NCBI RefSeq assembly: GCF_025602895.1
Contig: NW_026516421.1
Coordinates: 1-48,934 of the forward strand
Direction: 5' to 3'
DNA length: 48,934 bases
Source of the DNA: Polychytrium aggregatum
Taxonomy: Eukaryota; Chytridiomycota; Chytridiomycetes; Polychytriales
In this document: positions 1 through 34,900 of the stretch, piece after piece
Layout of the letters: each line of letters opens with the position of its first letter
How positions within the stretch are numbered: the stretch's first letter is position 1
The notes under the pieces: generated by a model
Seen by the model: the letters and a program-made list of their open reading frames with translations, nothing else
What the model was told of the DNA's origin: nothing
The model's database searches: none
Program-made: the position numbers and the translations under genes

Positions 1-16
1 ATTGATCTTAGCGAGG

Positions 17-863: not shown

Positions 864-1329
864 TGTCACAGATCGCTCTGCCCGCCTAGCTGCACCGTCG
901 CACTTGTGTCACTGTTTGCGTCGCACACTTTCCTTTTCCTTTGTCCTGTGACGCCTTTCCTTTTTCCTTGCTCTCATGTTGCACACGCCGCTCTGTTTTC
1001 CCTGCATTTGTCATCGACCATGCATTAGTCAGACGCTGTGTCACCCGCATTTGTCAGCCACCGAGCATTTGTCAGACTTTCACATGTTTCTCCGGTTAGC
1101 CGTTGCTGCCTGGCTGCTGTCCCGCCGCCTCCGCTGCTTCGCCCCCGCTGCGGCAGGCTTCGCCTCCGGGACCGCCAGACAGATAAATAGCCCGCCTTCA
1201 CCCGCTCATGTTTCTGGTCATCACCTTCGACCCCAGACACACTTGACTCTAGATCCTAGCCTCGCTAAGATCAATAAAACCCTTCTCTATCTTTTTCTTT
1301 TGATCTCCTCTTGATCCCGTGATCTGACA
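864..1329 (+). repeat. 5' LTR
   Basis: 466 bp, TGTCAC at the left end and CTGACA at the right end. It contains an AGATAAATAG TATA-like stretch near 1180-1190 and an AATAAA polyadenylation-type signal near 1273. Its sequence matches 6117-6582 throughout as far as I can read, and the short open frames inside both LTRs translate identically. The final A (1329) is also the first base of the gag ATG. Confidence 0.95.
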
Positions 1330-2387: not shown

Positions 2388-2408
2388 AGGACCCGGCGAG
2401 TTGCCGCC
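2345..2408 (+). promoter_or_regulatory. -1 ribosomal frameshift signal joining gag and pol
   Basis: Within the gag/pol overlap the heptamer GGGAAAC (2345-2351) fits X XXY YYZ, with GGA and AAC as the gag-frame codons (2346-2348 and 2349-2351). Pol lies in the -1 frame. Five bases downstream begins a perfect 9-bp inverted repeat, GGCGGCAAC at 2357-2365 and GTTGCCGCC at 2400-2408, with a 34-base loop that contains the gag stop. Slippery site, short spacer and stem are the standard parts of programmed -1 frameshifting. Use of the site is inferred. Confidence 0.85.
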
Positions 2409-6082: not shown

Positions 6083-6102
6083 TGGTTTGACTTGAGCACA
6101 AT

Positions 6103-6116
6103 TTTTCTGGGGGGGA
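6103..6116 (+). other. Polypurine tract
   Basis: A run of G residues followed by GA, immediately upstream of the TG that opens the 3' LTR. This is the expected primer for plus-strand DNA synthesis. It is seen directly; function is inferred from position. Confidence 0.75.
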
Positions 6117-6582
6117 TGTCACAGATCGCTCTGCCCGCCTAGCTGCACCGTCGCACTTGTGTCACTGTTTGCGTCGCACACTTTCCTTTTCCTTTGTCCT
6201 GTGACGCCTTTCCTTTTTCCTTGCTCTCATGTTGCACACGCCGCTCTGTTTTCCCTGCATTTGTCATCGACCATGCATTAGTCAGACGCTGTGTCACCCG
6301 CATTTGTCAGCCACCGAGCATTTGTCAGACTTTCACATGTTTCTCCGGTTAGCCGTTGCTGCCTGGCTGCTGTCCCGCCGCCTCCGCTGCTTCGCCCCCG
6401 CTGCGGCAGGCTTCGCCTCCGGGACCGCCAGACAGATAAATAGCCCGCCTTCACCCGCTCATGTTTCTGGTCATCACCTTCGACCCCAGACACACTTGAC
6501 TCTAGATCCTAGCCTCGCTAAGATCAATAAAACCCTTCTCTATCTTTTTCTTTTGATCTCCTCTTGATCCCGTGATCTGACA
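6117..6582 (+). repeat. 3' LTR
   Basis: 466 bp, apparently identical to the 5' LTR, ending TGACA and followed by the right copy of the CCTCC duplication at 6583-6587. It carries the same TATA-like and AATAAA elements, which here would act as the polyadenylation region. Confidence 0.95.
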
Positions 6583-16705: not shown

Positions 16706-17926
16706 ATGTCCCGAGCGGCCCTTGGAGCCCAGTCCGACAGTCCGCCAGCCCGGATCGTCCTCGATAATCTTGCTGGGTCTTCCGGTCTTGACTCACTCCA
16801 AGGTGCCCAGAACCGCGGTCTGGTGAACATTTTGGTGCCTGCAAGCTTTGTGCCATCCATTCTGCGTCTGCTGTCAGCATCGGCGACACTCAATCCGCGA
16901 ACCCCTCCACAGCCGACCCCGGATTCACCTTCGCTCTCTGGATCTGCACGCGATGGCAGAGGCCTGAGACCAACGCCCCCAGGCTTGCGTCGCTCCACCA
17001 CACCTCCTTTTGCCGAGCAGGATCTCGGCCGGGCACCATCGGCCAAGATTCGCCCAACTGGAACTGGCCCCAGTCCGAGCTCTCCGCTCGCCAAGACCCC
17101 AAAATTTGAGCGGCTGTTACGGCTCTTGATCTGCGTCTTGAAGCTCAACCTTGCCATTTCATCGCACCCGAGGCAACCGTGGCTGACGCCTCCCCTCGAC
17201 CTTATCGCAAAACAGATCTCGCTTCTTCGAATCCTCGCAGACTCGGCTGTGGTCGTTCGGTCGCTTGAAACCCTCCACTATCTGTGGCGATTCCTTTCGA
17301 CATCGCTCTCTAGACAAGATTCTGCTCTCCACGCTCTCGTCTCGCCGCACGCGCTGCCGCCTTCTGACACCCGGCCCGGTGATCTGAGCTGGCGCCGATA
17401 CCAACAGCAAATTGCAGTCTGGCGATCGATTTTCCTGTCCATAAGAACCTCATTGGACCTGGCCAATCTCCTCTATCGTGCACGCATCATCCGGCTGCCA
17501 CAGCGGATCCATACCTATCGGGCACTGCAAAAGTGGCTCATGGTCTCTTGGCTTGTGGTTGCTTTATTCGATCTCTCGGACCACATTGTGGATATGTACC
17601 TGATCTACAAGAACTGTGCCATGATGGGACAGCAGCTCTCGTGGGCCAAGGGCTGTCTGGAGGGCGAGAAGCAGATCATGCTCGAGGAATGGTCCCAGCA
17701 TGCCCGCTATTGGGCCGAAGCCTCCGTCAGCTCAAACAAGAAATTAGCCGAACTCTTTGGGGTCCTCATGCAGCTCTACGAGCTACAATACCCGGCCGAC
17801 CAGTCTGGCAGTATGCCTTTCCCGCTCTTCAGAAATCTCTGGGGATTTGTGTTGATATGTTTGGAGCTCTATTCGCCCAGCCTGCCACTGCTGGTCAAGG
17901 GAGCGGCGATTCCGACGAACGCATGA
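16706..17926 (+). CDS. Membrane-associated protein, possibly Pex11-like
   Basis: A single open frame of 406 residues from the first ATG of the frame. The first 130 residues are proline- and serine-rich and probably disordered. A helical region follows with amphipathic segments (FERLLRLLICVLKL, KQISLLRILADS). Then come hydrophobic stretches (WLMVSWLVVALFDLSD and LWGFVLICLELYSPSLPLLVKG near the end). This order, amphipathic N-terminal helices with two weak membrane segments and a short glycine-containing tail, resembles Pex11-family proteins, which curve and divide peroxisomal membranes. I cannot see a decisive Pex11 motif, so the assignment is a guess. That this frame is coding is fairly secure. 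Confidence 0.6.
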   Translation: MSRAALGAQSDSPPARIVLDNLAGSSGLDSLQGAQNRGLVNILVPASFVPSILRLLSASATLNPRTPPQPTPDSPSLSGSARDGRGLRPTPPGLRRSTTPPFAEQDLGRAPSAKIRPTGTGPSPSSPLAKTPKFERLLRLLICVLKLNLAISSHPRQPWLTPPLDLIAKQISLLRILADSAVVVRSLETLHYLWRFLSTSLSRQDSALHALVSPHALPPSDTRPGDLSWRRYQQQIAVWRSIFLSIRTSLDLANLLYRARIIRLPQRIHTYRALQKWLMVSWLVVALFDLSDHIVDMYLIYKNCAMMGQQLSWAKGCLEGEKQIMLEEWSQHARYWAEASVSSNKKLAELFGVLMQLYELQYPADQSGSMPFPLFRNLWGFVLICLELYSPSLPLLVKGAAIPTNA

Positions 17927-18093
17927 ATCTCCACAGCAGAACGGCGGAGATTCTGCTGTGGAACCAGCGGGGTCTCGAGAGCCCTGGTCGATTCACGAAG
18001 GTGGTGTATCCCTATCATGAAGGAGGCGTGGATCTACAGTCGGTCCAGAAAAAAAACGGGACACTTCCCCTTTCTGGCTTCGGATGTCTGAAC

Positions 18094-18121
18094 CCCGCTG
18101 ACTGACTGTAGGCCCAGCGGG
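18094..18121 (-). other. Hairpin in the Fanzor-derived 3' tail of copy A
   Basis: A perfect 7-bp stem (CCCGCTG at 18094-18100, CAGCGGG at 18115-18121 on the plus strand) with a 14-base loop lies between the Fanzor relic and the terminal repeat. In TnpB/Fanzor systems the guide RNA scaffold is encoded at this place. A role as RNA structure is inferred. Confidence 0.4.
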
Positions 18122-18174
18122 CAAGCCGTGAGATTGTTTCCCGTCCTGGTTGGCAATCGAGTGGTTTTGGTTGG

Positions 18175-18290
18175 TTTGGGAAGCATGGTCTTGAATACAC
18201 CCGGTCGATCTCCTGTGGCGATGATCGACTGGCATACCGAGATCATGTTCCTTGAGGCATTGATGTCTCGATGTGTGAGTGTGGTGCATT
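18175..18290 (-). pseudogene. Fanzor C-terminal relic
   Basis: Minus-strand translation reads HRDINASRNMISVCQSI...DRPGVF...LPK. This aligns with the last 35 or so residues of the intact Fanzor (NRDVNAARNMITVCRSI...RPVVF...LPK), covering the RuvC-III aspartate. The frame then runs past the normal stop into the 3' tail. Everything upstream of the second zinc-finger pair is missing, so no nuclease could be made. Confidence 0.88.
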
Positions 18291-18642
18291 CACTCGACCC
18301 TCTGGACAACTCCATGGTTTATCGATATAAAGATGGTGCTGTGCTTGGCCATGAATGCAATGAGTGGGTGGGTGTATTCAGGTTCCAGAAAAAAACACTG
18401 TCCTGGTTAAAACGGGGGTGACCCGTTTCATTTCGGATATGCTGTAAAGCACGATTCTGTGTTATTTTGAACGAGGTGTGCAAAACAACCCCCCTCAATG
18501 AGAAAGTTGCCGTTGCCGCCCATTGCTGCCATCTTGCCAGCAACACCATTGCTCTGCTAGCTACTTGTTCCTGGTTTGCCGGGCTTCCCGTTGCCTTGAC
18601 TACAAACCATTACATCTTAGTAGTGGGGGTAATACAGCGCCC

Positions 18643-20418
18643 CTAGACCCTCTTCCACACCATGACGTCATGGAGAGTTTGGCAGCCAGATTGATCCACA
18701 AACAAATCTTCATAGAGCAGCCAGATGCCCTCTTTCTGGGCGTCATCAACTCCGTTGGAAACTGACTGGACGTCATAGAGTGTCGGCTCCCCAGAGAAGG
18801 TGTTAAGTACGGCAATCTTGCGTCTTTGCTCATCGTCATCCTCCATCGTTGGCGCCAAGGTTGAGGCCATCACAGTTGTTGGCCCGGCCGACGATGCCTT
18901 GTTGAGAACAATTCTGGATTCATCCCAAGAGATCCCGCGGATCGAGTGAATGTCGTTGCCAGAGATGGTGTGAGTCCAGATGCGCTCAAGCTTGCGCAAG
19001 CTATAACCGCGAAGCTCCAAAAAGCTAGTATTGCTGATGGTACTCTGGATTTCTACCATGATGGCGAAGCGTAGAAGATGAACTCGAACGACGAGAGCGC
19101 ATCCGTTGGCAACGTCGCTACAGACGCCGAGCTGCGAGCCATCGCTGGCGTTTCGGAGCGTGATGAGATACGAAACTGGTGCTCGAGTGCCTTCTCGGGC
19201 AACATGGTTGAGAGTAAGCACAACCACGGCCGACTCATTCAGGTCCACAGAGTGAGCCACACTTTTGTGCTTCCAGAGCATCCTTGGAGTCAGCTCTGGC
19301 GACTTTGGATCGTGCACATTAGGAGGGTGTTTCGGCCGCATCTCAGAGACGACTTTCCTCTGTATACCCGACGCTGTTTTGCTTTGTGTTGCTGGGCCTG
19401 TCTTGCTGAGTGCAGGGGCAGTCTCCACATGGGCCAAGTCGACTGAATCGGAGTGCAAATGGTACAAACTGAGCCCGACCTCTGGCGAGTCGCTTGGGCT
19501 GGCCGCGGCTGGAGCAGTCACCACGAGGCCGTAACTACCACAAATCCGACCGGCGATGTAACGTTCCTGCGAGCCTTTGAATCCAATAGAACCAAGGGTG
19601 CGCTTTTGTGTTTTCGAATCCCAAAAGTAGAGCCTGTCTCCGAAGCTGTCACGGAACCCGATGATGGGCGAGCGGATCGACGGAACAAATGAGTCACACT
19701 GCTGCAGCTCGAGGGATGAAGCATAATCCTGCCCGTCGTCTTGGAGTAGATTCAGACACACTAGAGGCGGATGGAGGCTGGTCGAAGACTGCTTTCGCTT
19801 GCTCCGCCCCTCCATTCCACGAAAATAGCAAACTTTGTGGGTGGAGCCCGAAGAAATGGGCTGGGCTGCTGCCGGCGTCGTCGCGACGCCTGTGACGGTT
19901 GGGGTCGCTGCGGCATTTTCGTGAGAAAACCAAGTGCAAGCCAGCCAGGACGACGGTGCCTCGGCATCTGGGAGCATGGAGCAAACAGGTTTGGCGGCAT
20001 AGCATCCGACGATGAAACGTCGATTGGCGCATGGCATCGAGTTGAGCTTGGCGATTCCGGAGATTATGGGGGCTCGCTGTAGCTTCCTGCCTTTCCAGAG
20101 GCGGCCCTCTTCCCAAATCACTCTGCATTTGGCCAAGGTGGCCCAAGTTTCGGTGCTCAGTTTGATGGAGTCGTGGAAAAATCGAGCTTTGATCACATGC
20201 GGTCGCCAGAGCACCTCATCGAGCTCTTCAATCTTGTCGTAAAAAAAGCCCGATACTCGGCACATTTTCTGAAGATCCTTGGGCAAGAGCCGGCCAAGAA
20301 TTCGGACCAGAACGGCATCAGGCAAGCGCTGAAAGGAGTCGCTCTGTGAATTGAGAGCCTCAACACTCATGCTGGCGATGGGTTGAGTTGCAGAGTGAAT
20401 GTCAACTGAGTGCGTCAA
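18643..20418 (-). CDS. F-box protein
   Basis: 591 residues, single exon. An F-box lies near residues 31-75 (LPDAVLVRILGRLLPKDL, then CRVSGFF and LWR), which should bind Skp1 in an SCF ubiquitin ligase. The rest, about 500 residues, has no repeat I recognise, though short beta-rich segments (VCSMLPDAEAP, LYFWDSKTQKR, VVVLTLNHVA) could be a propeller-like substrate domain. The start at 20418 is the first Met of the frame; a second Met at codon 17 is possible. The gene lies between two oppositely oriented copies of a Fanzor-derived element. The substrate is unknown. Confidence 0.82.
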   Translation of the reverse strand: MTHSVDIHSATQPIASMSVEALNSQSDSFQRLPDAVLVRILGRLLPKDLQKMCRVSGFFYDKIEELDEVLWRPHVIKARFFHDSIKLSTETWATLAKCRVIWEEGRLWKGRKLQRAPIISGIAKLNSMPCANRRFIVGCYAAKPVCSMLPDAEAPSSWLACTWFSHENAAATPTVTGVATTPAAAQPISSGSTHKVCYFRGMEGRSKRKQSSTSLHPPLVCLNLLQDDGQDYASSLELQQCDSFVPSIRSPIIGFRDSFGDRLYFWDSKTQKRTLGSIGFKGSQERYIAGRICGSYGLVVTAPAAASPSDSPEVGLSLYHLHSDSVDLAHVETAPALSKTGPATQSKTASGIQRKVVSEMRPKHPPNVHDPKSPELTPRMLWKHKSVAHSVDLNESAVVVLTLNHVAREGTRAPVSYLITLRNASDGSQLGVCSDVANGCALVVRVHLLRFAIMVEIQSTISNTSFLELRGYSLRKLERIWTHTISGNDIHSIRGISWDESRIVLNKASSAGPTTVMASTLAPTMEDDDEQRRKIAVLNTFSGEPTLYDVQSVSNGVDDAQKEGIWLLYEDLFVDQSGCQTLHDVMVWKRV

Positions 20419-21010
20419 TATGCGGCGTTGATGGCTGGAAAAAAAAAAGAGCCCAATGGTCTATATAAGATTCCTCCTCTATTCCAGAGTGGATTCACCC
20501 GGTGAAGCGGTGGGAAAGGAGGCTGAAATACTCGGTGTTTTTCAGCCGTACCTGTGTCTTGTGAAGAGCCGTGCAGATAGCAATCGAGCACCCCTGGTCC
20601 GATAGATAGATTCTGTCCGGCAAGCGTCTGGGATTAAACCGCCCAAATTGAAACGGGACAACGTATATCTCCCAAGTCAATGATGTCGATCGATCACCGG
20701 GCTAAAGGATGTCGATCGGTCCTCACACTATTGTGATATATCGACCGCAGAGAATATTAAAGTCTGGTGCGGATTCTTCGGGACCAAGTCCCAGAAAGTA
20801 ACCTTCCTATACGGTAGGGTCGGCGTGCTTGAGTCCAAAAATGACGATATGTCCCATTGTCTACGCTATAAGCCCAATTGAGATCGAATCTGGATCACAG
20901 GCGACGATCGATTCGGTTGGCCGGTTGTGGTGCGAGTCGATTGCAACCGATTCCGGCGGGCCAGAGACGAGCCTGAATTGCTACGCATTGTGTGAGAAAA
21001 TAACAGCTTC
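20419..21010. other. Region with scattered transposon-end fragments
   Basis: About 590 bp without a gene. It includes the F-box gene promoter (a TATATAAGA stretch near 20461) and an isolated copy of the terminal repeat core, GAAACGGGACAA (20650-20661). A weaker facing copy, TGTCCCATTGT, lies near 20850. These may be the ends of a decayed 200-bp element, but the match is too weak to call. Confidence 0.4.
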
Positions 21011-21175
21011 CCAAATGAAACGGGACACCCTGCTGTGAGTCAGGGTTGTCGTTGCTTTCTGGTCCTGAATACACACCATTCATCACCCACCATGACCAAA
21101 GAGCATGTTCGCGATGCCTGGAAGCCGAGCGACTCCAGAAGGTCGACTATCTTGATACCGAGTAACCATGGGGCT

Positions 21176-21305
21176 GTCCAGATGGTTGGGTGCATCCAGA
21201 TGGTTGGGTGCATCGAGTGCATCTAGTGCAGCTGGTGCATCTGGTGCATCGAGTGCATCGAGTGCATACAATCACATTCCACATCCAGTGCATACAATCA
21301 CACTC
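21176..21305 (+). repeat. Tandem repeat array inside copy B
   Basis: It starts with two copies of an 18-base unit (TGGGTGCATCCAGATGGT). Several 9-base units of the GTGCATCGA / GTGCATCTA type follow, then two copies of a longer unit containing GTGCATACAATCACA. The related element copy A lacks this array, so it arose after the copies diverged. Confidence 0.8.
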
Positions 21306-21315
21306 CAGCATCACA

Positions 21316-21382
21316 ACATCAATGACAATCGATTGCTGCCACGGGATATCGACTGGGTGTATTCAAGATGATGCTCCCGAAG
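21316..21382 (+). pseudogene. Second Fanzor C-terminal relic, internally deleted
   Basis: Nucleotide alignment with copy A and with the intact Fanzor is clear over ACATCAATG, then CGATTGCTGCCACGGGATA, then GGTGTATTCAAGATG and the CTCCCGAAG that matches the Leu-Pro-Lys end. A deletion removes the Ala-Ser-Arg-Asn-Met segment, so the frame is broken. Confidence 0.75.
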
Positions 21383-21540
21383 CCAATGAAAGCCAAGTGA
21401 TTGCCAACGAAGACCCGAAACAATCTCATGGCTCGTCCACTGGGGCCAACAAAAGTTCAGCAGTCCTCGGGCCTCCGATGCCAGCGAAAGAGGGGCACCG
21501 TCCCATTTCGTTCGGAACAAGCCGTACACTTTCTTCAGGG

Positions 21541-21685
21541 GAAATGGGACACTAGCCCATGACCCATATGTTGGTGTGGTATCTGATGGCTTGCGTCCAA
21601 CAGAGCCATGTGCAATAACACGGATCACCTCCGAGTGAAGACTTCGGGATGCTCTCCGTCTCCACAATCGACCGTGTCCCATTTC
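21541..21685. mobile_element. 145-bp MITE with 12-bp perfect inverted repeats
   Basis: GAAATGGGACAC (21541-21552) is repeated exactly in inverse as GTGTCCCATTTC (21674-21685). The repeat differs by one base from the AAACGGGACAC core of the autonomous element 29 bp to the right, so the same transposase could have moved it. The 121-base interior has no coding potential and no clear similarity to Fanzor. Confidence 0.75.
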
Positions 21686-21713
21686 GCCTTGGGAGTGTTA
21701 CAGGCAATCCAAT

Positions 21714-21726
21714 AAAAAACGGGACA
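21714..21726 (+). repeat. Left terminal inverted repeat
   Basis: AAAAAACGGGACA, 13-base perfect inverse of the right end. Similar cores recur at 18051, 20651, 21018 and 21542. Confidence 0.85.
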
Positions 21727-21784
21727 CCCGGGTTTTTGACCATTCATCGAATAGTTTGTTACCCAATGTTATCGCGCGCTGGCC

Positions 21785-22717
21785 ATGACCATTCGCCACA
21801 CATCCGACTTTCGCACCGCCGCATTGCGATGCTACGCCTTCATCCATAGCCTGCGTAAGGTTGCCTCCATATTCAGTGTGTCCAAGAGCACCATCCATCG
21901 ATGGCACCGAGGATGCAAGCTGGATGACCCATCCCGGGTCCCAGCTCGCAGATCCACTTTCTTCGAGCAGGCATGTCCAGTCATTCGCACCCTGATTGAA
22001 CAGGACCCGTTCCAGACTGGTCCTGTGTTGCGATGCAAGCTCGAGTCCATCCTCCAGAGGAAAGTTTCACTCTCACTCTGCCACACTGCCATCCACCGAG
22101 CAGGTCTCTCACACAAGAGGGCAACACACCTCTACAAGTCCAAGCGACTGGATGAGCGAGTGGCACAGTTCAGGGACCAGGCCTGCTCCATCGACCCACG
22201 ACGATTCGTTTTTGTCGACGAGACAGGGATCAGGAGATCCATTTTTCCTCTTTACGGATACTCGCCGAAGGGTGCTCCGCTTCGCCAGCGCAATCATATG
22301 AAACACAAGTCTGTCTCGGCTGCATTTGCCATCAACCACTCTGGTGTGCTGCATCGCATGTACATCCCCACATCATTCAAGACACACTCGATGGTCGAGT
22401 TCTTTGAGCGAGCGAGCTTCCCAGACGACTCTGTGATTGTGATGGACAATGTCAGCATGCACAAGACAATGGCTGTCCTGGACTGCATCGAGCGCCGAGG
22501 ATGGTCAGTGATCTTCACCCCACCTGCCTCGCCCGACTTCAATCCCATCGAGAACTTCTTTGGGATTGTGAAGCGTCAGTACAGGAAGGCAGCAGCGCTG
22601 AATGCGTCCGAGGGGTTCAGAGTCGGGATGGTGACCCTGTTTGAGTCTGCCGTTCGGAGGGTGCTTCCAGATGTCTTCCCACGGCTGATTGAGCGAGCGA
22701 TGCGCTTCTGGGGTTGA
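21785..22717 (+). CDS. IS630/Tc1-mariner superfamily DDE transposase
   Basis: 310 residues. The N-terminal helix-turn-helix region has VASIFSVSKSTIHRW (about 26-40), which should bind the terminal repeats. The catalytic triad is Asp145 in FVFVDETG, Asp221 in VIVMDNVSMH and Glu256 in SPDFNPIENFFG, with 34 residues between the last two (DD34E, as in Tc1/mariner). The family cuts and pastes DNA into TA. The ATG is 71 bases inside the left repeat. All motifs are intact, and the length is normal for the family. Confidence 0.93.
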   Translation: MTIRHTSDFRTAALRCYAFIHSLRKVASIFSVSKSTIHRWHRGCKLDDPSRVPARRSTFFEQACPVIRTLIEQDPFQTGPVLRCKLESILQRKVSLSLCHTAIHRAGLSHKRATHLYKSKRLDERVAQFRDQACSIDPRRFVFVDETGIRRSIFPLYGYSPKGAPLRQRNHMKHKSVSAAFAINHSGVLHRMYIPTSFKTHSMVEFFERASFPDDSVIVMDNVSMHKTMAVLDCIERRGWSVIFTPPASPDFNPIENFFGIVKRQYRKAAALNASEGFRVGMVTLFESAVRRVLPDVFPRLIERAMRFWG

Positions 22718-22834
22718 GTTCCCTCCAATCAAGCCGCCGTTTTCGCGTTCACATCCCTGGCTTGAACCTCTCGGCGATTTTTGAACAGGGTCACTTCCCC
22801 AACCAGCCCGCAAAGACGGGCTCCTGCTCTCGGG

Positions 22835-22840
22835 TATAAA
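22835..22840 (+). promoter_or_regulatory. TATA box candidate for the Fanzor gene
   Basis: TATAAA in the context GGGTATAAATG, 129 bases before the Fanzor ATG and about 120 bases after the transposase stop. It suggests that Fanzor has its own promoter rather than being read with the transposase. Confidence 0.5.
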
Positions 22841-22968
22841 TGCCACACCTTCGTCCTGCTGCTTTCTTTCCTCATCTCGCCTTGATCTGATCATCGCGCT
22901 ATTGTACGATAAAAAAAGTCTCTGCTCTGACCAGTACCACTGGCAGGCATCCAGCATCCTCTGCCCCC

Positions 22969-25341
22969 ATGCCTCCGAAGCGTAAGGGTACCGGTGATGG
23001 CCAGCCTCGGCCACCCAGGCCCAAGAAAGCCAAGTCACAGTCGGAGCCTGTCTCTGGTTCGTATTCTGATCCCACGCATGCTTGGTCGTCTGTTGCTCCG
23101 TCGCTCACCACCACTGCTTCTGCAGATCCAATGGATGTCGATCCCACCGAGCCTGGTCCATCTACTTCCTCGAGTACTGGCAAGCGATGTCCCAAGTGCG
23201 ATGGCACCGATCACGAACGCTGCAACACTAGCAAGTGTCCCAAATATCACCCCCTCAAGAGTTCTGTCGTCCCACTCGTGGATGGAAGGTCATCCGCCCC
23301 TCAGTTCAGCTGCTTCAAGCAGACCATGGATGGCTGTTGTCTCAATCCCGCTCTCCGCGACAAGATCCAGGCCACCGTCGAGGCCATGACCCAGATCCAG
23401 TTCGAGGCATCCAGGCTGCTCAACCTGCACATCCTCCGGTGCATCGAGCAGGATATTCCCGTCCCCGTCATCTCCAAGTCCACCCCTGCTTTCGTTCGCC
23501 AATGCTTCACGATTGTCCAGGACGGTGCCCTCTCCCCGACCGGGGACAATGAGAAATACAACGAGCATCTGGTCGCTTCCTTTCGCGACTACCAGACCAC
23601 TCGGCACGCAGACCTGCCTCCGGCCCCTCGTCTGCCTGATGGTGCTCACAGTCAGCTTCTCACACTGGCTGTCAATGCCTATGCTACCAACTGCACCACC
23701 CACCTCGACCTGGCCTACTGGCGACTCCTTCGCCGCTTCTGCGCTGCCGTCTTCCCAGCCAACAAGCATAAGCACGAAGCCATCGAGGCCTGTCTTGAGC
23801 TCTTTGAGAAACCAGGGCAGACTCCACCCAAGGCCGATCTCGAGTTCCTCTATCCAGACTTTGGCCACGTCCTGGACGAGTTTCGGTACAGCAACGACCA
23901 GGACCGCTTCCGGGCCCTCCATCGCCTCTCACACCATGTGGGAATCCTCGCCCGAGACAAGATGGTCGACAATGTCCACAAGTGGATCGACTGTGACATG
24001 CCCGCCCTCCGAGTCACCGAGCTGCAGCGCCAGGCCAAGCTGGACAGCCTCACTGCCAGAGGCATTCCCTCCGACGACAAGAGGTTCACCAAGGCCAAGT
24101 CGGAGCTCGGCACCACCAAGTCCAAGATCAACAAGCTGGCATCCAGACTCAAGTGGGCCCTCAAGCAGCTCGCTCTCGACACTCCTCCGGCCGTGTGCAC
24201 GATGGTCCCTCTGTGCACTGCGAAGGCCAAGTATGTCAAGATCGACACGGTCACTCTCTGGGAACTCCTGGGTCCAAAGAAGCGCCTTGGACTCACCAGG
24301 GACAAGCTCAAGGAAGAAGGTGATGACGGTGTCAACAACCAGGATCGTCTCTGGCGCAGTTGCTTCAAGCTGCGTAGTTCCCTCTTCCGTGACCGGGATA
24401 TCAATCACAAACTGTTCAACTACGAGATCAGCACCGATGGCATTGGATGCACCATCGGCCTCGTCAAGTTTTTGCCTCGAACCGATCACACCGAGACCAT
24501 CGAGCCTCCTCCGACTGCCGAGCAGCGTATCCAGGCCCACATCGGCAACCCAGACCCCGATCGCACCACTTGGATTGGCATCGATCCTGGAGTCGGCTCC
24601 ATCTTCACGGCGGTCATCCAAGCACCGGGCCACCAAGACGAGGTGGTCTCGTTCTCCAATGGCCACTACCAGCAAATATGTGGCCATACGTCCAACACAA
24701 GGTGGCACAACACCATGAAGTATCGACTCAGCATCGAGACCTGGATGTCGACCACCCCCTCGCCCAAGGTGTCGTCCTCGGAGGCTTTCAAGGTCCATCT
24801 CACCCATGTCCTGCGACCGGAGCTGCGAGTGCAGCTCGACTTCCACCTTGGCAAGAAGGCCCGTCACCATCGATTCACGGGCCACAAGAGGCGCCAAGTG
24901 GCCGTCGACAGGATGTGCAAGGCCGTCCTGAGGCACGCCCCGATACGGACCGATGTGGTGATCGCCTTTGGCAATGCGTCATGGCGTCAAGGCAAGGGCT
25001 ATGCATCCAGCCCTCGGAGGCAGCGGTTTGCTCGGTACTTTGAGCAGTTCGAGCACCACCGTTGCCGGCCCAATCACCATCATGGAGGCATCAAGGTGGC
25101 CTCGACGAACGAGTTCAACACCTCGCAAGTGTGCTCCAAGTGCCTGGAGCCAGTTCGGTTGGAAGGACTCGATGCGCCCAGTGTTGCGAATTCCCACTTT
25201 GTCAGGAGCTGCAAGAATCCCAGCTGCCGGACAGTGTGGAATCGCGACGTCAATGCGGCGCGCAACATGATCACAGTATGCAGGTCGATTGTGGAGACCA
25301 GAGAGCGACCGGTGGTCTTCACTCGGAGGCTGCCAAAGTGA
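22969..25341 (+). CDS. Fanzor (eukaryotic TnpB-like RNA-guided DNA nuclease)
   Basis: 790 residues, single exon. A basic N-terminus (PPKRKG, PPRPKKAKS) looks like a nuclear localisation signal. A Cys-rich motif follows (Cys74, Cys77, Cys85, Cys90), then a long helical region. The C-terminal half is a split RuvC nuclease: RuvC-I WIGIDPGVGS (Asp539), and RuvC-III NRDVNAARNM (Asp760) preceded by a zinc finger (Cys722, Cys725, Cys748, Cys753). Glu715 in NEFNTS sits where Fanzors carry a shifted catalytic glutamate. Fanzors cut DNA guided by an RNA whose scaffold is encoded at the 3' end of the gene. The size fits Fanzor1. The start is the first Met, 129 bases after a TATA box. All catalytic positions are present. 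Confidence 0.94.
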   Translation: MPPKRKGTGDGQPRPPRPKKAKSQSEPVSGSYSDPTHAWSSVAPSLTTTASADPMDVDPTEPGPSTSSSTGKRCPKCDGTDHERCNTSKCPKYHPLKSSVVPLVDGRSSAPQFSCFKQTMDGCCLNPALRDKIQATVEAMTQIQFEASRLLNLHILRCIEQDIPVPVISKSTPAFVRQCFTIVQDGALSPTGDNEKYNEHLVASFRDYQTTRHADLPPAPRLPDGAHSQLLTLAVNAYATNCTTHLDLAYWRLLRRFCAAVFPANKHKHEAIEACLELFEKPGQTPPKADLEFLYPDFGHVLDEFRYSNDQDRFRALHRLSHHVGILARDKMVDNVHKWIDCDMPALRVTELQRQAKLDSLTARGIPSDDKRFTKAKSELGTTKSKINKLASRLKWALKQLALDTPPAVCTMVPLCTAKAKYVKIDTVTLWELLGPKKRLGLTRDKLKEEGDDGVNNQDRLWRSCFKLRSSLFRDRDINHKLFNYEISTDGIGCTIGLVKFLPRTDHTETIEPPPTAEQRIQAHIGNPDPDRTTWIGIDPGVGSIFTAVIQAPGHQDEVVSFSNGHYQQICGHTSNTRWHNTMKYRLSIETWMSTTPSPKVSSSEAFKVHLTHVLRPELRVQLDFHLGKKARHHRFTGHKRRQVAVDRMCKAVLRHAPIRTDVVIAFGNASWRQGKGYASSPRRQRFARYFEQFEHHRCRPNHHHGGIKVASTNEFNTSQVCSKCLEPVRLEGLDAPSVANSHFVRSCKNPSCRTVWNRDVNAARNMITVCRSIVETRERPVVFTRRLPK

Positions 25342-25430
25342 TCTGTTTTATTTCTTGTGGCTTTGCTTGACGCAAGCACAGCACATACTACATGTTCATG
25401 GAAACGGCTATATTGTCCCGTTTTTTTTCT
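25240..25430 (+). ncRNA. Expected guide (fRNA/omega-RNA) scaffold region of Fanzor
   Basis: In studied TnpB/Fanzor systems the RNA starts within or just after the 3' part of the nuclease gene and runs through the element end into flanking DNA, which supplies the guide. Here the candidate span covers the last coding bases, a 72-base untranslated tail and the right terminal repeat. A hairpin TGCTTG-ACG-CAAGCA lies at 25364-25378. The corresponding segment is the part retained in the two decayed copies. RNA boundaries are inferred, not seen. Confidence 0.45.
25414..25426 (-). repeat. Right terminal inverted repeat
   Basis: TGTCCCGTTTTTT on the plus strand, the exact inverse of the left end. The T run continues two bases further, then CTGAATAAAG. 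Copy A has the same CAGAAAAAAAACGGGACA edge, which supports an outer boundary near 25430. Confidence 0.85.
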
Positions 25431-25952
25431 GAATAAAGTGTACTGTCATTTTGCGCGGGAAAGCCGGCTCCCCCATACCGCGCTCTCACTCTGCTTCGAG
25501 TGCCGGCGCTCGCGCGACGTTTCTTTGACTAGAGTCCCCCTTCCGAGTCTACCGAACGTATTTCACTCAGATAGACGCTCCGCGTCATTCGAGCGATGAT
25601 GAATGCTGCAACAGGTGACCTGCGTTGTGGGTTTCTGCATTTATTGTGAACCGGCGCGTATTGCGTCTCTGGCTGTTCGAGGGCGGGATTGTCACCATGA
25701 CTGATCAAACGATTCGACTTGTCCACAGACGCAGCACGCACTGCTTCGGGCCGACGCAGACCTGCCCATACACAGAAGCGACCAAAGCCACGACCTTCCG
25801 GAAAATTCAGACTTGACGGTCACCCCTCGGCGGTAGTTTTTGTTCGGGACGATATTGTACAGAACTTTGATTGTTCCTCGTTGGATCGTGTACTTGCCCC
25901 TCGCACGGAGGAGTGCTTTTCAGTATACGGGGATGGAAACTATTCTTGCGAG
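25427..25952. other. Promoter region of the dynein gene
   Basis: About 525 bp between the Fanzor transposon and the first dynein ATG. The dynein frame stays open back to about 25719 without a Met, so a further 5' exon or an upstream start is possible. I see no other gene or repeat. Confidence 0.45.
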
Positions 25953-28900
25953 ATGAGCCAGATCTCCGAAAAGAAAGCAAAGACATCCTGGCGCAACTCC
26001 AGATTACCTCTCAAGCCCGGTCAGGAACGCATTGCCCATGAACGAGTTTCTCTACCCGCACAGCCAGCTCACGCCAGAGAAGATGCGAATCCACAGAGCA
26101 GTCCGCAAATGAACCAAATCATTCTCAAGCTTGAGCAACACTTTAAAAAGCGGAGCAAAAAGGCCATGCGTGAGGGCTTATCGGAAGCGCTTCATAGAAA
26201 TGATCCATATCGAAGTCCGATGAATCTACAATCAGCAAAATATCTGCCTCTCGAGTGGTTTGATGATATCGAAATGGACCCATACACGCCGCAGGAATGG
26301 GTCGGTCTCGGTGGAGATGATGGCGGCACTCCCGCCGTGAGTCGCTTCTTCTTTTACCCTGAATCTGATGTCGACTGGCAGTGGCTCTCATGTCGCGTCA
26401 TTGGATACGACGACACCCTAGGACTTTTCTCGATCAAATGGGAAAATTCAGACCAAGTCAAGTTGGCAAAACGCCTCAACATTTGCTTCAGAGCCGAGCG
26501 AATGGATAAATTCTACTCGCGGATCGAGACCGCGTTTCGGCTGCGAAATGCCGCCCATCAGCAGGTGTGCTATCTCCGTAACATCGAAGAGATGAAGAGC
26601 AAATATCGCCACAAAATGCCAAAACGGCTCAAAATACGGCTTCTCGATGCTGTCAAAGACCATGTGAGCATGCGCAACCTGGCAACGCTGGTGAGTTCGA
26701 TTGCACTCTCGTCCTCGTCGCGGCCGTGGCTGTGGATCGCTTGGATTCACACCGAACGCTACCTATAGCCAGCGCCATCGCCATCGGTCGATTGAGCCCG
26801 AGCCTGAGTCTGAGTATAGCCGCTCACAAACGCGATTTGTGCTCTGTATGTGTATAAGGAACACTGCGTTTTAGAAATTGAGACGGACTACACCCTGAGC
26901 ATGAGGAGGGCAGAGTACGACCATGTGAACGGACCGTATGAAGCCACGCTCCAGCAGATAGCAACTGCCACTTCCGAAAAGTTTGCAAAACTGGCTCTTG
27001 AGAAATCTGGCGCGAACCAAGATGACATCCAAGATAAGCTCTATAAATCCGTGGCCCTTTCAACCCGAGAAATGTCAACATACATGTTTCTCGCCAACGC
27101 CGAAGTGCAGCGCACTATCATCGACATATTGGGATCGCTCCGAAATGTATTCAGCGACTCGGATAGATACTTCCAAAAACGCTTTGAGCTGCCGCTTTCC
27201 TTTTATGCATTCTGTGATAAGCTAAAGAGTCACGTAAGCTGTGTCCAAGTGAAGCTCACCCATGAGTGGCCCCACGCTATTGCAAGCCGGATCAAATCAC
27301 AGCTCGGGGAGTACTTCAACTTGAAGGAATCTCGTGATGTCGCCCACCAAACAAGTCGCTGCAAAGATTTTCTGAGGATGGTAAACCTGGTGATGAAACA
27401 GCAAGCGAGCGCCTGCGCTTACGATGGGCTCAAGTTGTTCCTGAAGATGTTCAACGTGATTGTCCGGGATGATCTGTATGCAGGCCCGGAGAGACGTAGC
27501 TCTACCCATGGAGATATCCAAAGCACATCTCTCTTCAATATCTGCTACGATATTCAAGTGCCAACAGCCGTGCCCGAAGCGCCTCTGCCACTACCCTGCG
27601 TTGTTATCATCAAAATTTCTGTCAGAGATATCTCTGGAATCTACTATTGCACCTCCGACGTTCCAACCGAAAGAGACAACGCCATCGGTCTTGATCCGCC
27701 CCTCGAGTTACTCGAGAGTGCCATACTAGAGCTCTTCACTTTGCCAAGAATCTCGACCAGTAACAGCATTCCGACAATCGAGTCTCTTGTGCTTCCGTTT
27801 CTGGAAGTCCTCGAGCCAAATACCATCACACTTGACTACGATGAGCCCCTCATATTGGATGGAAGTCGGATCTTGCTGAGCCTCATCCGAGAAACCTACA
27901 CCAACATAAACTCCCTGGTCAATCAGTACACGGCTTACGAGTTCCTTGTGCAGGAGGAGTTGTCCGATGAAACGTTTCAGAACGCCATCCGCCATATCGA
28001 CTTACTTCGCGAGCTTTTGTCGAAATACCATGAGGCAACAACCACCGTGGGCCACGTTTCACTGGACTATGTGCGTTATCCCCCTCTTGTGGTCGACTGT
28101 GCGGAAATCAAGAAGACACTTGGCAGTAAGCTGCGGGAGATATATGGAAAAATAGGAATTTTCATGAGCACACATATCCAGACAAGCTGTCGAGCGATAT
28201 GCAAAGCCTTCCAGCGACTCTACGACGCCATTTCTGTGGATCCGGCACAAGACGCAGAGAAATGGAAAACTTTTCAAAACTCAGTGGCCAAGTCGATGGA
28301 GGAAGGAAATAGATATCACAAAAAGGTATGATACGATATATATACTCTGCGCGAGTTTTGATGTATGTCTGGAGCGATGGGGGTATCTGGGGCTTCGATA
28401 GATCCTGGATGCGCTTCTGCCTATCGATAGTGTCCCTGATTGATTGAATCGTGCTTCGCCGGCAAACTTGAAACGCCACTCCTTGGCCATCTTGCGCTCT
28501 GCATGACTCGACGCGACAAACACAAACCAACAGCTGAAATACCTGAAGCAAGTCTGGGATTTGCTTGAGGAGTACAGTGTCTCGTTTTCGGATGAGATCA
28601 ACACTCAATTTTGGGAAACATGGGCATGGCCAAAGCGCTTGTTCTCGGAGGTCGAAGAGGCCAATCATCGACTGGAGGAATCAAAACGGCACATTGGGCA
28701 GCAAATAGAGGTCGATACAGAGTTTATCAACTCGAGCGTCGCAGCGTATACGTTGGAAATTGATCAGCATTTGCGAGAGAACGCGGTTGATTCAATCGAA
28801 ATCATGTACGCTCGAGTCCAAAGTCTCCGACACAAAATCGACAAGATTGGGGCTCTTGTGCTCAGTGTACAAGAGCGTGGAAAGCTCATTGGGCTCAATC

Positions 28901-31900
28901 AAGATATGTCGTTCAAGGCCTTTGCCGAGCTGATTGAAGGCTTCAAGGCGTATGAGTACCTCTGGAGTCTTGCCGGAGATATTAGAACGTTGTTGGACAA
29001 ATGGATGGACTCGCTTTTTATGGATCTAGACTCCAAGTTGATTTCTGAAAGGTTTTCGACATGGCTTCAGGGAACGCAAACCCTCCAATCTCTGTTTTCC
29101 AACGATCCGCGCTCGACTCAGACCATCGCCGGGCTGGAGCAATCTGTCAAAGACTTCCGGCGCTACATGGACGTTATTATGTCGCTGAGAAACCCAGCAC
29201 TGAAGCCGAGTCACTGGGAAGCGATCGAAAAGGTGGTCGGGATATCATTAGAGGATCTGCAGACTGTTACACTGCGTGCTGTTATCAAGTTGGATATTGA
29301 ATTGATCAGCGACATATTATCCGATGTCAGCAAAAATGCGAGCGTTGAGCATATGCTCGAGAAATCGTTCGACATGATTATGGCCGAGTTCTCGACCATC
29401 GAGTTGACTGCGGCAATGACCGCTGATGAGAAGTTTACCGTTGTCGGAAGCAGTCAAGTGACTCTGTCGATATGCGATGACCATCTAATACGCCTGGAGC
29501 AAATATTCAAGCGAACTCTTATCCAGCAACTTCGTACTCGGGTCGAAAGCTGGGCGAAAAAAGTCCTCCGTACGCAGGAAACCATAGCAGCGTGGGCGCA
29601 GTTTCAGCATGAGTATCAACGCTTGCAGGCGGCGCTGGCTGCTGGCGGAATCCAGGATGCACTCCGCAGAGCCAATGTAGACAACTTTCTGGGCGTCACC
29701 AAAACAATGCAGCTACTCTCGGACTTTGCATCCAAAAACAAAAAACTCTTGGCCGTGCTGTTGCGGACAGAGCTCCTCGATATGATCAACGGAGCTTTGA
29801 CCAGATGCGAGTCTGTCCTCGCCAACGTCCGCGAGATCTTGGACATCAAGCGCAAGTCATGCCCCCGCTTCTATTTTCTATCAGATCTTGAGTTGATGGA
29901 GGTACTGCGCTGCAATTCACCTGAGCACATTGGGTCTCACATCACATCGGTGTTCTCCAACGTTGCTGCCGTCGTCTTCAAGTCAGCCGATCAAAAAGAG
30001 ACTGGCGGTCTCGACCCTGCCGAGGAGCGAAAGTCCGTGCTCTCGCATTGGACAGAGACGACGTACATGTCCAAAAGCACGAACGACACATCATCTGAAG
30101 CAGGCGACGACAAAAGAGCGACTGTTCTTGGGGTGGAGAGCCACGAAGGACTATTGTTGGGCTTTCAATTCGAAGTCCCACGCTCAATCGCCCTCGAGGA
30201 CTTTATTTGCATACTCGAGCGCGAAATCCAGAGCAGAATTTGGACATCCATCAAGGAGTTGCTCGGTGAAAACGAAGACGAGCCCCTTACACGGCTGTAC
30301 CATCTCCACCCCATCCAGAGCATTTTGGCGGTGCTGATGGTTCGTTGGACCCGGAATATCAGTAGCGTCATTACCAAAAGCATCGAATCTGGACTGTCAA
30401 ACTATCGCAAAAAGCTGCAAAAGGACCTCGAGGTGCTGGTCCAAGCAACACGAACCCGTAAGCCCATGTCGAGCCGGGTGACTCTTGAGATACTCGTGAC
30501 CATGGTGGGATATTTGATCGACTCCATTGATGGAGTCATCGCTGCCAACGTCACAAGCACCACGCAATACGAATGGACCTCCAAGCTGCGGTACCACGTT
30601 GATCACGATGAAACAAGGTTGCTGGTACGGATGATGGGCACCCAGATCTATTACGGATTGGAGTACGTCGGTGGTCATCCGCGAATTATTATGACCCCGA
30701 CAGCAGTCCGCTGCTTCCGCAATCTAGTTCAGATGATTGGTCTCTCGGCCAGCCCGCTATTGCTGGGACGATCAGGGGTCGGAAAGACCGAGCTCATCAT
30801 GGAACTGGCAAGCTTTGTTGGACTGCGATGTGCAACCCTCAGCTACGCACCAATGCTCACCGAGTGCGACATTCTGCGGCATTTCTACGGCATGCTGGCG
30901 ACAAATTGCTGGATGTGTGTTGAGAACCTGGAAAGCTATCAGTGTGAGCAGCTGTCGATCTTCAGCCAAATCGCTGGCAGCTTTCAAAAATCGCTGCAAG
31001 CCGCGATAAAATCTAAGCAAACAAGCATTATGTTCGGGGATTCGGCTTTTCCGTACAACTCCACGCCGTGCTTCTTCTCCACCATGACGACAACGAATTT
31101 GAAGAACTGGACGCTCGTATCCCCGGATGTCAAAGCCCTCTTTCGCCCTATTGCACTAACCCAGCCACACACACATGTTATAGTTGAGGGTGTCTTGAAT
31201 GCACGCGGGTTTAGAATGGCCAGGCAGATTGGGAAAAAGATGGCCTATTTTCAATCGGTTTCGAGGATAATTTGCGGCTCCCGCATCGAGATGGAACTGC
31301 AGCTACGACGAATCAAGGTCATCTTGGATGCCGCAACCGGCTATTATGAAGAGACTCGCACGGCCACGAACGAACTCAAGGTTATCGTACGGGCTTTGCA
31401 CCATTATTATCTGGGCCAATTTGATGTTCCAGATCGAAACGTCCTGCTTGAAATCATCAATGATCTGTTTGAGGATCACAAACACAACGGTGAAACACTG
31501 CTCTCAGAAGAGTCCTGGATAGCAGCCTCCAAGACTGTCGGAAACATCGTGATTACCGACACCTTCCGACACCTTCTTGGTGAGTTTCATCAGACGCTCG
31601 AGTCATTCAATTCAGTCATCATCCTAGGACGAGTATGCACCGGCAAAACAACACTGTGGAAGACCTATTTGGAGATCAGCAACGCCCAGCTCATCGAGCG
31701 CGAAAGGCGGCTTCATATATCTGCCTCGCATCACTTTCCCAATGCTGCGGGCAATGTAGATTGGAGCGTATTCGAAGCCTCGCGCGAGGTTCCGGCGGAA
31801 GGACAATCGGCTGGCATGACCCGTGAAGTCACGCAAGAAAATGAATGCGACAATACCGGCGATACTGCCGATATCGACGAAGCACACTGGATCGTCTGGG

Positions 31901-34900
31901 ATGGAACAATATCAAACATGAGAGATCTCAATCTCATGCTCGTTGCCGAGAATAGCCGCTATCCTGTCAACGGACACGATGAGATAATGAGGCATGGAAA
32001 CGATACAAAAATCATCCTAGAGACCCGAAGCATGGAGGGAGTCTCTCCATCGATCGCTGGTCGGTATGCCATCCTCTCGGTCGCCACTGGCCATGTTGTT
32101 GACCCAGCCTGTGAAATGGAGGCTCGTCTGGCCGTTTTAGCCCCAAACTTTGATATCCACAAACCTCTGTTGATGGTCTTCCACAAGATCATCTTTATGC
32201 CGCTCTGTGATCGGGCACAGCAGGCGAAAGTTGGATTTTGGAGCGCAAACAGGGTCATCTTGACGCAACAAGTGATGCAGCTCTTTGTCGCCATGAGCAA
32301 GCTTGTGACCGACGATGGTCATGAGCGCATGACCCTTACAGAACAATCAGTCTGGTGTCTTGCCTCGATGATCTTCTGCACTGTATGGACTGTCGGTGCG
32401 TTTGTACGCGACGAACAGAGAATTGAATTCGATCGCGCTCTCAAGGCTATGATTGAAGGTAGCGAGTTGGCCAAGATCGAGGATGAGCTCGGTGTCCCAC
32501 GTGGACAATTTCGAGAAGCAATCGGCCTCCCCGCCGAACACACAGCATACGACTACTACTTTGACGAGACGCTGATGCTTTGGAAGCCATGGAAGCAGCT
32601 CCACGGGGGGCAATATTTTTCCGTCATCGACGCCGGCTGCCCTGAAATGGCTCCGACGGACGAGCTCCTCAAAAGCGTCTTTTTCGCGAACGCTTTGTTG
32701 GATAGTGGCCTCCGACCCATCATGGTAGGATGCGATGGTGTCGGAAAAACGAAGACGATGATGTCGTTTCTTAACTTTCGCCAGAAGCAGAGAGGCGAAA
32801 AATGCATCGTGGCATCGTGGAGTGGGAATCTTTCCCACACAGACTTTCGCCGCACAATTGAGCAACAGCTCTTCAAGAAGCGCAGGCGAGCCTTTGGAAG
32901 CGTGGTGCCGCTGCGGCTCTTTGTCGATGACCTCGAGTATATCCCGGACCAGGCCCTGTTTGAAGTCTTGCGGATGTGGTGTGAGACCGGCGAATGGTAT
33001 GCTGCAACCGTAAAGCCAGAGAATATCCGCATCGAAGATATTAGTTGGCTCGGGTGTGCAAATACAGACGTGGGCGACTTTCAGCAGCTGTCAGAGGCCA
33101 TCAGACGCTACGTCTTTCCGCTCCCTCTTAGCGACAAGTTTGAGCCAACGCTGTCGGAAATCGTCAAGCTTGAGCTCCGAGCCCTTCGGCCCCAATTCGC
33201 AACCGAAGAACTTGCTGAAGTCATATTTGTGATGTCCTCGATGCTTCTCCGATGGGCACGCGATACCCTGAAGCCTTCACCACTGACTCGCGGTCTGATC
33301 TTCTCGGTAGCAGACATCCACCAAATAATCAGGCAGCTTCACCGATTCTTGGACATATCTGACGATCTCAACAAGATTGTGGCCGTGTGGTCTTATGAAT
33401 GTCGGATCAGAATGGCAGACAAGCTCGATCCCGCTGGGCGACAAGTATTTGAAGATGCCCTTGGAGAAATTGTACAGCGAGCATGTCCTCCAGGGATATA
33501 CAGCGAAATGCTTACAATTGATCATGCACACCACCGCCGTCTGCAAAATCGAGCGGACGATGGCGCTCGACTGTCCGTCCACGGCTCACGACACCGCATT
33601 CACAGTCGGCGGCAGAGCTGTCAGAGTAACTTTGCGTATACGTTCGAGCCGACTTCGATCGAGTCTGTTTGTGCATTTTCAGGCTGCGAAATGCCAACAA
33701 GTGAGCTCAAGCAACGTGTTGGATGCATCCTTCACCCAGATGGAGTCGACCAAGCCTTGCGTCTGGCCCACAAATTGAAGGCACACCCTGTCCACGTCTT
33801 TCTTGTGGGAGAAGAGCATGATGATAGAAGCAACATCATCGAGTTTGTTGCTCATTTGAACGGCGCACGATTCAAATGCTATGAGGCAATCTGGGACGAC
33901 CAGATCCTGGATCAGTCTATCCAGTGGAGAGCAACAATAGCGTCGCTGTTTGAGGCTGTTCTCGAAACTTGGAAGCACATCTACTTTTTCATCGACAGTG
34001 CCGATATAAAGGAAGGATATCAATGGAGTGATTTGATATCGATCATGAAGCTTGGCTATACGCAGGAGTACTACGCAATGTCAATGACCCAGAAAAACAT
34101 CGGCTCCTTAAAGCGGCACCTCCAGCGCCACAGTAGCCGCCGGACATCGAAAGATGAGGAAGAAGAGCTTCTACCAGAGTTTGCTCGACTGATGCGACGA
34201 TACATTCATATCATCATTTCATTTCACGATACCAGAGCTGGCACAAGCTCCAGCCTTCTAAGTGCCATAGGACTCTTATCCACAAGACATATGATTCCAA
34301 GTTGGTCCTCAGCCACGATAGCATGCATGACAGAAACTGCGATTCAACAGTCGCCACATTGCTCCGTCATCGATATGGTGCGTGAGCTCGTGCTCGAGTT
34401 TTTTACCAGTGCGTATAGGCAACTGACACTGAAACGAATCCCAAGCATCAAGCCGGTGTATGTTCGAACAGCTATCCGGCTATTTGTGCTGTTCTTTTGC
34501 TCCAAACACGAACTCCTTAACCAGCAGTACGCAGCCACGACCCACGCGATCGAAGGAATCGATAGGGTTGTGAAGCTGATAGACAGAGTCGAAGAGGAGT
34601 ACACCTTCTCCCAATCCGAGTTTGTTCGAGTTTCGGAGAAGACCCAGCTGTTCTTGAAGCGGATGGAAAATCTGCGGGAAGACCTTGACAGAGTAAAGGT
34701 TCAGCAACGGAAGATGACAGATGAGGAGGCACGGCTCGGCACCGACTACGAGCGGTTGATGGCCACCCTGGCGGTTGAAGAGGCCAAAGTTGGACCTATC
34801 CTTTCGGCCTCGGTAAAGTCCGTCGAAGCTATTCAGAAGGGCGAGCTCTATGAGATTAAAACAATGATGAACCCACCAAGGGCCATCCAAGTGATCGTGG

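Follow-up and report, generated by a model that had tools for sequence, protein, structure and literature searches.

Ghost elements retaining a candidate omega-RNA segment beside a transposase-encoding Fanzor element in Polychytrium aggregatum

Can small elements that have lost nearly all of a Fanzor gene still provide this CRISPR-like nuclease with guide RNAs? This question is raised by a stretch of 48,934 nucleotides of the chytrid Polychytrium aggregatum (contig NW_026516421.1, positions 1 to 48,934, forward strand; hereafter the window), which carries three such elements, A, B and C, and a complete element, F, encoding a transposase and a Fanzor protein. We regard A, B and C as non-autonomous ghost Fanzor elements and give an even chance to the reading that their 3' tails supply guides to Fanzor in trans. 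Ghost Fanzor copies have been described before in a single fungus; here they occur beside a complete element that also encodes a transposase.

According to the available parts of PMC10432273 (presumably Saito et al. 2023), to which all statements on that paper refer, the role of Fanzor for its host transposon is an open question. A genome with a transposase, Fanzor and many ghost loci sharing terminal repeats would make this role testable, in that a separate guide, target and cut site can be predicted from every ghost, and comparison of alleles would let the refilling of emptied sites show in sequence data.

Anatomy of the ghost elements

The genome searched comprises 64.7 Mb in 418 contigs, the window being its contig C134, and element ends were set by comparison of genomic copies (Table 1). 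A, B, C and F all have Tc1/mariner-type ends at TA and, with one mismatch allowed, the terminal inverted repeat (TIR) core GAAAYGGGACA. Elements B, C and F are contiguous, with one TA common to B and C and one to C and F. A preliminary description of the window had recorded only two small elements, ending at 18045-18437 and 21011-21511; these ends had to be extended to 18035-18446 and 21001-21526, and C (21525-21700, minus), which is closer to the full element, had been missed.

This anatomy was seen directly. A and B align with each other over 263 bp (70%) and two shorter blocks, in agreement with the preliminary description, show no transposase match and have lost nearly all of Fanzor. In place of the last 35 or so codons described for both, A keeps approximately 55 degenerate C-terminal codons (residues ~736-790; tblastn 47%, obtained with L027, which is identical to A). 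The 81 bp over which A matches the Fanzor 3' end give a score of 37, compared to at most 16 in 300 shuffles. B keeps only Fanzor traces: its own match to the Fanzor 3' end of F scores 16, which shuffles also reach (maximum 17), and its Fanzor ancestry is visible only via A-type relatives. The loss up to the RuvC-III codons, described as complete, is not quite so: a portion of the zinc-finger segment survives, with A 112-168 and B ~106-198 mapping to the same stretch of L046 (seen in several loci). L046 is a longer A form of 645 bp with Fanzor residues 661-735 and 755-790 in two frames. C matches the 3' end of F with 74% over 110 bp and retains 27 nt of the left end (LE), compared to 149 nt at the right end (RE).

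Elements B and C are paired in inverted orientation, their right ends facing each other. This pair is present as a unit at two different sites (window 21001-21700, C405:172668-173347, C113:173159-173838), as if moved as one composite element.

Table 1. Positions of the elements and their parts in the window
Feature	Position	Strand	Description and basis
Ghost element A	18035..18446	-	412 bp with both TA counted; ends set by comparison of 22 aligned copies
Ends of A			LE TACAGCATATCCGAAATGAAACGGG; RE ...CTGGACCGACTGTA
Degenerate Fanzor codon remnant in A	18175..18339	-	~736-790, contains RDINASRNM (RuvC-III); tblastn on identical copy L027; translation
A 3' tail and RE TIR, candidate omega-RNA scaffold	18035..18154	-	Homology to 3' ends of the second Fanzor gene, Fz-A; fold; pair counts
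Putative guide of A	below 18035		Flank
Ghost element B	21001..21526	+	526 bp including both TA; GTGCATC-rich expansion inside
B 3' tail and RE TIR, candidate omega-RNA scaffold	21402..21526	+	Homologous to A tail; TIR hairpin
Ghost element C	21525..21700	-	176 bp; 27-nt LE, last ~20 Fanzor codons, 3' untranslated region (UTR) and RE of F lineage
Full element F	21699..25442	+	3744 bp; TIRs at TA; transposase and Fanzor
Transposase of F	21785..22717	+	310 aa; DDE_3 (Tc1/mariner-IS630 type); Pfam PF13358, E=5e-24
Fanzor1 of F	22969..25341	+	790 aa; Pfam PF07282 (TnpB-type C-terminal domain), E=7.9e-10
F 3'UTR and RE TIR, candidate omega-RNA scaffold	25342..25442	+	Position as in published Fanzor loci (PMC10432273); pair counts on alignment A2

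Two Fanzor lineages and their ghost families

A search with C yielded 597 candidates, of which 40 were scored; four places extend over C from 1 or 9 to 176. Among 20 loci fetched, nine have the F-mini structure, in which the left part of F as far as position 209 (the LE with the start of the transposase frame, in some with an inner gap) is fused to F ~3576-3744. Two others have an LE to ~100, L096 has an A-type LE, and L095 and L109 show another deletion; for the remaining six, ~440 bp of upstream sequence were fetched and contained no LE (in L111, a lone core match lies close to the edge). Five pairs among the 20 loci look like two haplotypes of one insertion. The C-related F-mini junction occurs at 148 genomic sites, and gene-type sequence at the junction position at 296. 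C itself is an extreme member of the F-mini family, its LE cut to 27 nt.

In case of A, 40 of 990 candidate places were scored; 34 match end to end, one from position 34, and five represent the longer form, split in two pieces. The A junction, at which the left end is fused to Fanzor zinc-finger codons, was found at 50 genomic sites with at most 3 mismatches. For either junction the reversed-pattern control gave 0 sites, and both counts include haplotype duplicates. B occurs at six genomic places with at least 85%, itself included. Hybrids exist in both directions, with an A-type LE and an F-type tail (L080, L096) or an F-like LE and an A-type tail (L081, L012), and the tail is still present in all four.

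A and B share only the inner TIR with F; their outer TIR and tail are those of the lineage of a second Fanzor, Fz-A. The Fz-A frame of 793 aa is uninterrupted in L090, and its product shares 45% identity with the window Fanzor. Thus, the terminal repeats described as those of the full element are so with regard to TIR core and TA ends, not with regard to the outer TIR and tail, and a derivation of A and B from F itself is rejected. The right ends of F-mini and C are homologous to the region of F from the Fanzor stop to the 3' inverted repeat (IR), and that of A to the corresponding region of Fz-A (L087-L090, same genome). By sequence, A and B are placed in the Fz-A lineage and C in the F lineage, i.e., in two Fanzor lineages.

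Fz-A with its right end is carried by a compound repeat X with ends CACTAT.../...ATAGTG (open in L090; shortened in L087-L089), which was seen at L087-L093 and also at L070, L071, L072, L077, L078, L079, L083 and L086. Since X contains the Fz-A right end inside, the would-be guide is nearly the same across its copies. X was classed as CACTA-like by its end sequence only; CACTA is not among the superfamilies named in the abstract of PMC3627910.

Common descent, shared junctions and the multi-copy state are direct observations, and independent random truncation of each copy is rejected by the junctions shared at 148 and 50 sites, as the check on truncation points proposed in the preliminary description had envisaged. 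The elements are short and non-coding, have the TIR core of the transposase-encoding element, lie at TA sites and occur in many copies with the same internal structure. As had been proposed, they are miniature inverted-repeat transposable element (MITE)-like derivatives, of the Tc1/mariner-IS630 type, in a genome with 129 transposase matches (536 candidates, 128 scored). Because the ghosts keep both TIRs, an F-type transposase could move them, as suggested by the common TIR core, the TA sites and the number of copies; non-autonomous mobility is very likely.

The full element and its relatives

The Fanzor1 motif D-X(125,275)-[TS][TS]XX-C4 finger-X(5,50)-RD, as given in the abstract of PMC3627910, is present in the window Fanzor with D539, T718 S719, C722 C725 C748 C753 and R759 D760; the protein also has E715. 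A profile of the window Fanzor and Fz-A matches the Spizellomyces Fanzor 8gkh (E=3.8e-4); phmmer of PDB with the window Fanzor alone gave no match. Among 1280 candidates, 57 near full-length Fanzor copies were scored (residues 1-790 or 2-790, 94-100%), 48 without a stop and nine with one. In 20 fetched relatives of F both ends were recognised in 17, these being 3483-3746 bp long; the Fanzor match spans 1-790 or 2-790 in all 20 and the transposase match 1-304 or more in nine (one in two pieces), a sample that favours Fanzor because it was picked by Fanzor score. Recurrent F-type transposase matches span only residues 1 to ~262, the adjoining Fanzor being full length in the copies inspected.

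Retention of the tail

The tail is, by sequence comparison, homologous to the 3' ends of both Fanzor genes (45% identity between their proteins), and it sits where published Fanzor loci encode the omega-RNA; by this analogy it is probably a guide scaffold. A sample selected by TIRs only (the first 18 of 368 matches, corresponding to 17 loci) contains eight loci with the right flank of compound repeat X (repeat ends viewed in three or four), eight non-autonomous loci and the unassigned L084; L075 was seen without its left end. Except for one, all eight non-autonomous loci keep at least ~120 nt of tail. Nine loci of a second sample were chosen for a left end resembling that of B. Among them the tail is present in L016 and, with the right end read by eye, in L019; L017, L020, L022 and L025 have no recognisable right end. 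L009, chosen by its right side, keeps the tail as well. The tail is thus kept in most sampled elements, and position, homology and retention agree with the earlier claim that the putative guide-scaffold segment was preserved.

Predicted structure of the tail

In predicted folds of the A and F tails, the RE terminus, including the target-site duplication (TSD), can pair with an internal segment. Two alignments were evaluated. Alignment A1 comprises A-type right ends (54 raw matches, reduced to 41 rows, 40 distinct); identical or near-identical rows were removed, and since five distinct rows of low A-tail similarity such as L076 were left out, it leans towards kept tails. In a hand-drawn model the RE end pairs with an internal TACAGTC, and 89.6% of cells are paired, a value inflated because the model was drawn from the same sequences (shuffled controls 89.2, 19 of 500 reaching 89.6%; slides at most 52.6). 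Covariation is 0.104 compared to 0.095 (4 of 500 shuffles), and one pair with two-sided change is well filled (CG 17, UG 15, UA 7).

Alignment A2 (26 rows) consists of 15 of the 20 C-search loci, F and C of the window, L080 and eight F copies, with L095, L109 and L113 (right-end terminus not recognisable) and L106 and L107 (near copies of kept rows) left out. Hairpin and RE-end stem are 91% paired (1 of 500), covariation is 0.100 compared to 0.068 (1 of 500 shuffles), and the hairpin shows one strong compensatory swap (UA 12, AU 9, unpaired 5 of 26). Addition of the TIR hairpin to this model lowers the signal (35 of 500) because its register differs between F and F-mini. Stem P3 is not countable in one register for F and F-mini (69.8% paired), so no column-wise covariation is claimed for it.

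Upstream arms and TIRs were exchanged among 59 pairs, two F rows being left out. The own TIR fits better over all pairs (0 of 5000) and with one pair per lineage (13 pairs; 70 of 5000); the corresponding values are 209 of 5000 within F only and 1898 of 5000 within B only.

Insertion sites, flanks and alleles

In raw counts without base-composition control, the base before TA is T in 16 of 17 left ends of F type, counted after six misassigned rows out of 23 had been set aside, and T or A in 21 of 23 left ends of A type. The two patterns are similar and not identical. A target-adjacent motif (TAM) ending in TA would fit the CATA of SpuFz1. Outside repeat X and apart from allelic-looking pairs, the right flanks vary among A and F copies, and so would their guides.

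L028 (C268:361632-362622; 410 bp) and L114 (C413:174660-175240; 533 bp) represent one A insertion on two contigs. The two are identical in their flanks, in the initial ~106 bp and in the final ~123 bp of the element, and differ in the middle. One middle contains the RuvC-III codons; the other lacks them and has the segment preceding and surrounding the zinc finger. This suggests an internal replacement in place, as break repair from another copy would give.

In case of ghost L033, ~55 nt of the right flank are themselves a repeat from near the element edge, and the left flank is unique. This repeat occurs at C24:581704 and 38 other places; at C24:493995 it lies beside another A copy, and L115 is the repeat without a ghost.

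Relation to known systems

In the literature search (part of it bibliographic entries alone), ghost Fanzor loci were treated only in PMC10432273. The closest known case is given by the ghost Spu-1 omega-RNA loci of Spizellomyces punctatus described there. Like these, the present ghosts are IR-flanked, lack a Fanzor open reading frame (ORF) and occur in many copies, their right end resembles the region from the Fanzor stop to the 3' IR, and their IRs differ to some extent from the IRs of Fanzor loci. Several differences are apparent. No transposase was reported between the IRs of Spu-1 loci, whereas the partner element here encodes a DDE transposase; Spu-1 ghosts share one conserved region of ~550 nt, whereas at least two ghost lineages and hybrids occur here; and, unlike in Spu-1 ghosts, remnants of Fanzor codons reveal the deletion path. 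Ghosts outnumber Fanzor loci in S. punctatus (134 versus 42), whereas the junctions counted here (148, 50) do not outnumber the 296 gene-type 3' ends. Gene-bearing and ghost copies of S. punctatus have a common CA before the left end, the TAM being CATA, and ghost omega-RNAs from four loci worked with SpuFz1 in human cells (PMC10432273).

Like PUl-1 and PGv-1 (PMC3627910, presumably Bao and Jurka 2013), F combines a Mariner-type transposase and Fanzor1 with TIRs and a TA TSD, and is one more element of this type; the available parts of that paper include PUl-4, a Fanzor-only relative with Mariner TIRs, and no description of ORF-less ghosts. The predicted TIR/TSD pairing in the tails recalls insect-virus Fanzor1 reRNA, in which, according to the available text of PMC10711439, the scaffold is predicted to include TIR and TSD and to have a three-stem shape, and the reRNA extends ~15 nt past the TSD; expression was shown there.

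Possible function of the ghosts

For scaffold function, transcription, loading, cutting and refilling of ghosts we infer the following course. Ghosts are products of internal deletion in two related transposase-plus-Fanzor elements, and their right end with the 3' tail would correspond to the omega-RNA scaffold region of the full element. Transcription of a ghost into the adjoining DNA would yield an omega-RNA whose guide is the ghost's own right flank. Fanzor from the full element would load this RNA and cut the matching empty allele after excision, and repair of the cut allele would copy the ghost back. By analogy, solitary omega-RNA units of bacterial TnpB are scaffold loci without nuclease that act in trans. 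A guide function in trans is plausible on the basis of homology and is the use with the best precedent. Going further, one may speculate on a three-tier system, in which the transposase excises full and ghost elements, ghost-guided Fanzor cuts the emptied TTA/WTA sites, repair refills them, and the L028/L114 swaps are footprints of template-switching refilling. We hold this extension to be rather unlikely; if it were true, ghosts would be maintained by a nuclease that they do not encode.

Several observations weigh against a maintained guide scaffold. The tail was lost in L018/L021 (near-identical, probably one insertion; from the sample with a B-like left end) and in part in L076, which lacks part of the tail core and is the exception among the eight non-autonomous TIR-selected loci, and in L024, which is from the B-like sample as well; retention is therefore common, not universal. 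Within A (22 aligned copies) the tail (301-400) has a nucleotide diversity (pi) of 0.11-0.16 compared to 0.04-0.06 for the Fanzor codons (181-260). The expectation of a tail more conserved than the middle thus holds for positions 141-180 (pi 0.30-0.34) and fails for the retained codons. Compensatory stem changes are few. Two-sided change occurs in only three pairs of A1 and two of A2, as many as in 161 and 222 of 500 shuffles, respectively, so that covariation is weak, with one good compensatory pair per lineage. RNAalifold on A1 recovers only the upstream hairpin P0 and not P1-P3 of the model, and the minimum free energies (MFE) of the A, B, C and F tails resemble those of shuffles (z +0.5 to -0.6; L079 and L031: -1.3 and -2.3). 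Among A rows, hairpins formed with the own TIR have no advantage over those with an exchanged one (4827 of 5000); the arm/TIR signal, if any, lies between lineages. Finally, a search with joined flanks found no empty site for the two insertions tested, one site being filled on both contigs that hold it and the other being without a second allele.

Neither RNAalifold nor the MFE z-scores, single tails being mostly no more stable than shuffles, were accepted as proof of a scaffold. The same applies to Rfam, which gave only two sub-threshold microRNA matches in window 17800-25900.

Interrupted gap repair is a source of MITEs, and the ghosts may be ordinary ones, in which it left 100-200 bp at either end, both being needed by the transposase, and the Fanzor 3' end was retained solely for being the right end, without RNA function. 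We consider this a serious possibility, somewhat short of an even chance. Transposase and gap repair alone would also keep both ends, F-mini is symmetric (209 bp left, ~168 bp right), the tail shows no special conservation among A copies and was lost in some families, and L028/L114, with the same flanks and ends and different middles, is what gap repair with template switching would be expected to leave. The latter case fits plain gap repair and Fanzor-driven refilling equally and does not separate them. An explanation by ordinary MITEs accounts less well for C, which retains the whole tail and almost nothing on the left, and for L074, L082 and L114, which kept the tail though their RuvC-III codons were lost; the fit of TIR hairpins with one pair per lineage and the precedent of active ghost omega-RNAs (PMC10432273) also speak against it. 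That the tails are former scaffolds, now acting only at the DNA level as transposase-binding or hairpin structures, with the TIR-upstream complementarity serving transposition, appears improbable to us: the complementarity does involve the TIR and, when lineages are compared, matches the TIR of each, but the LE of C measures only 27 nt.

Other features of the window

Window 1-6573 contains repeats of ~300 nt at 176, 1021 and 6274. The frames 1329-2387 and 2273-6082 presumably belong to a Ty3/gypsy retrotransposon, which they resemble, and the 3372-aa open frame at 28561-38679 resembles what we take to be a dynein heavy chain.

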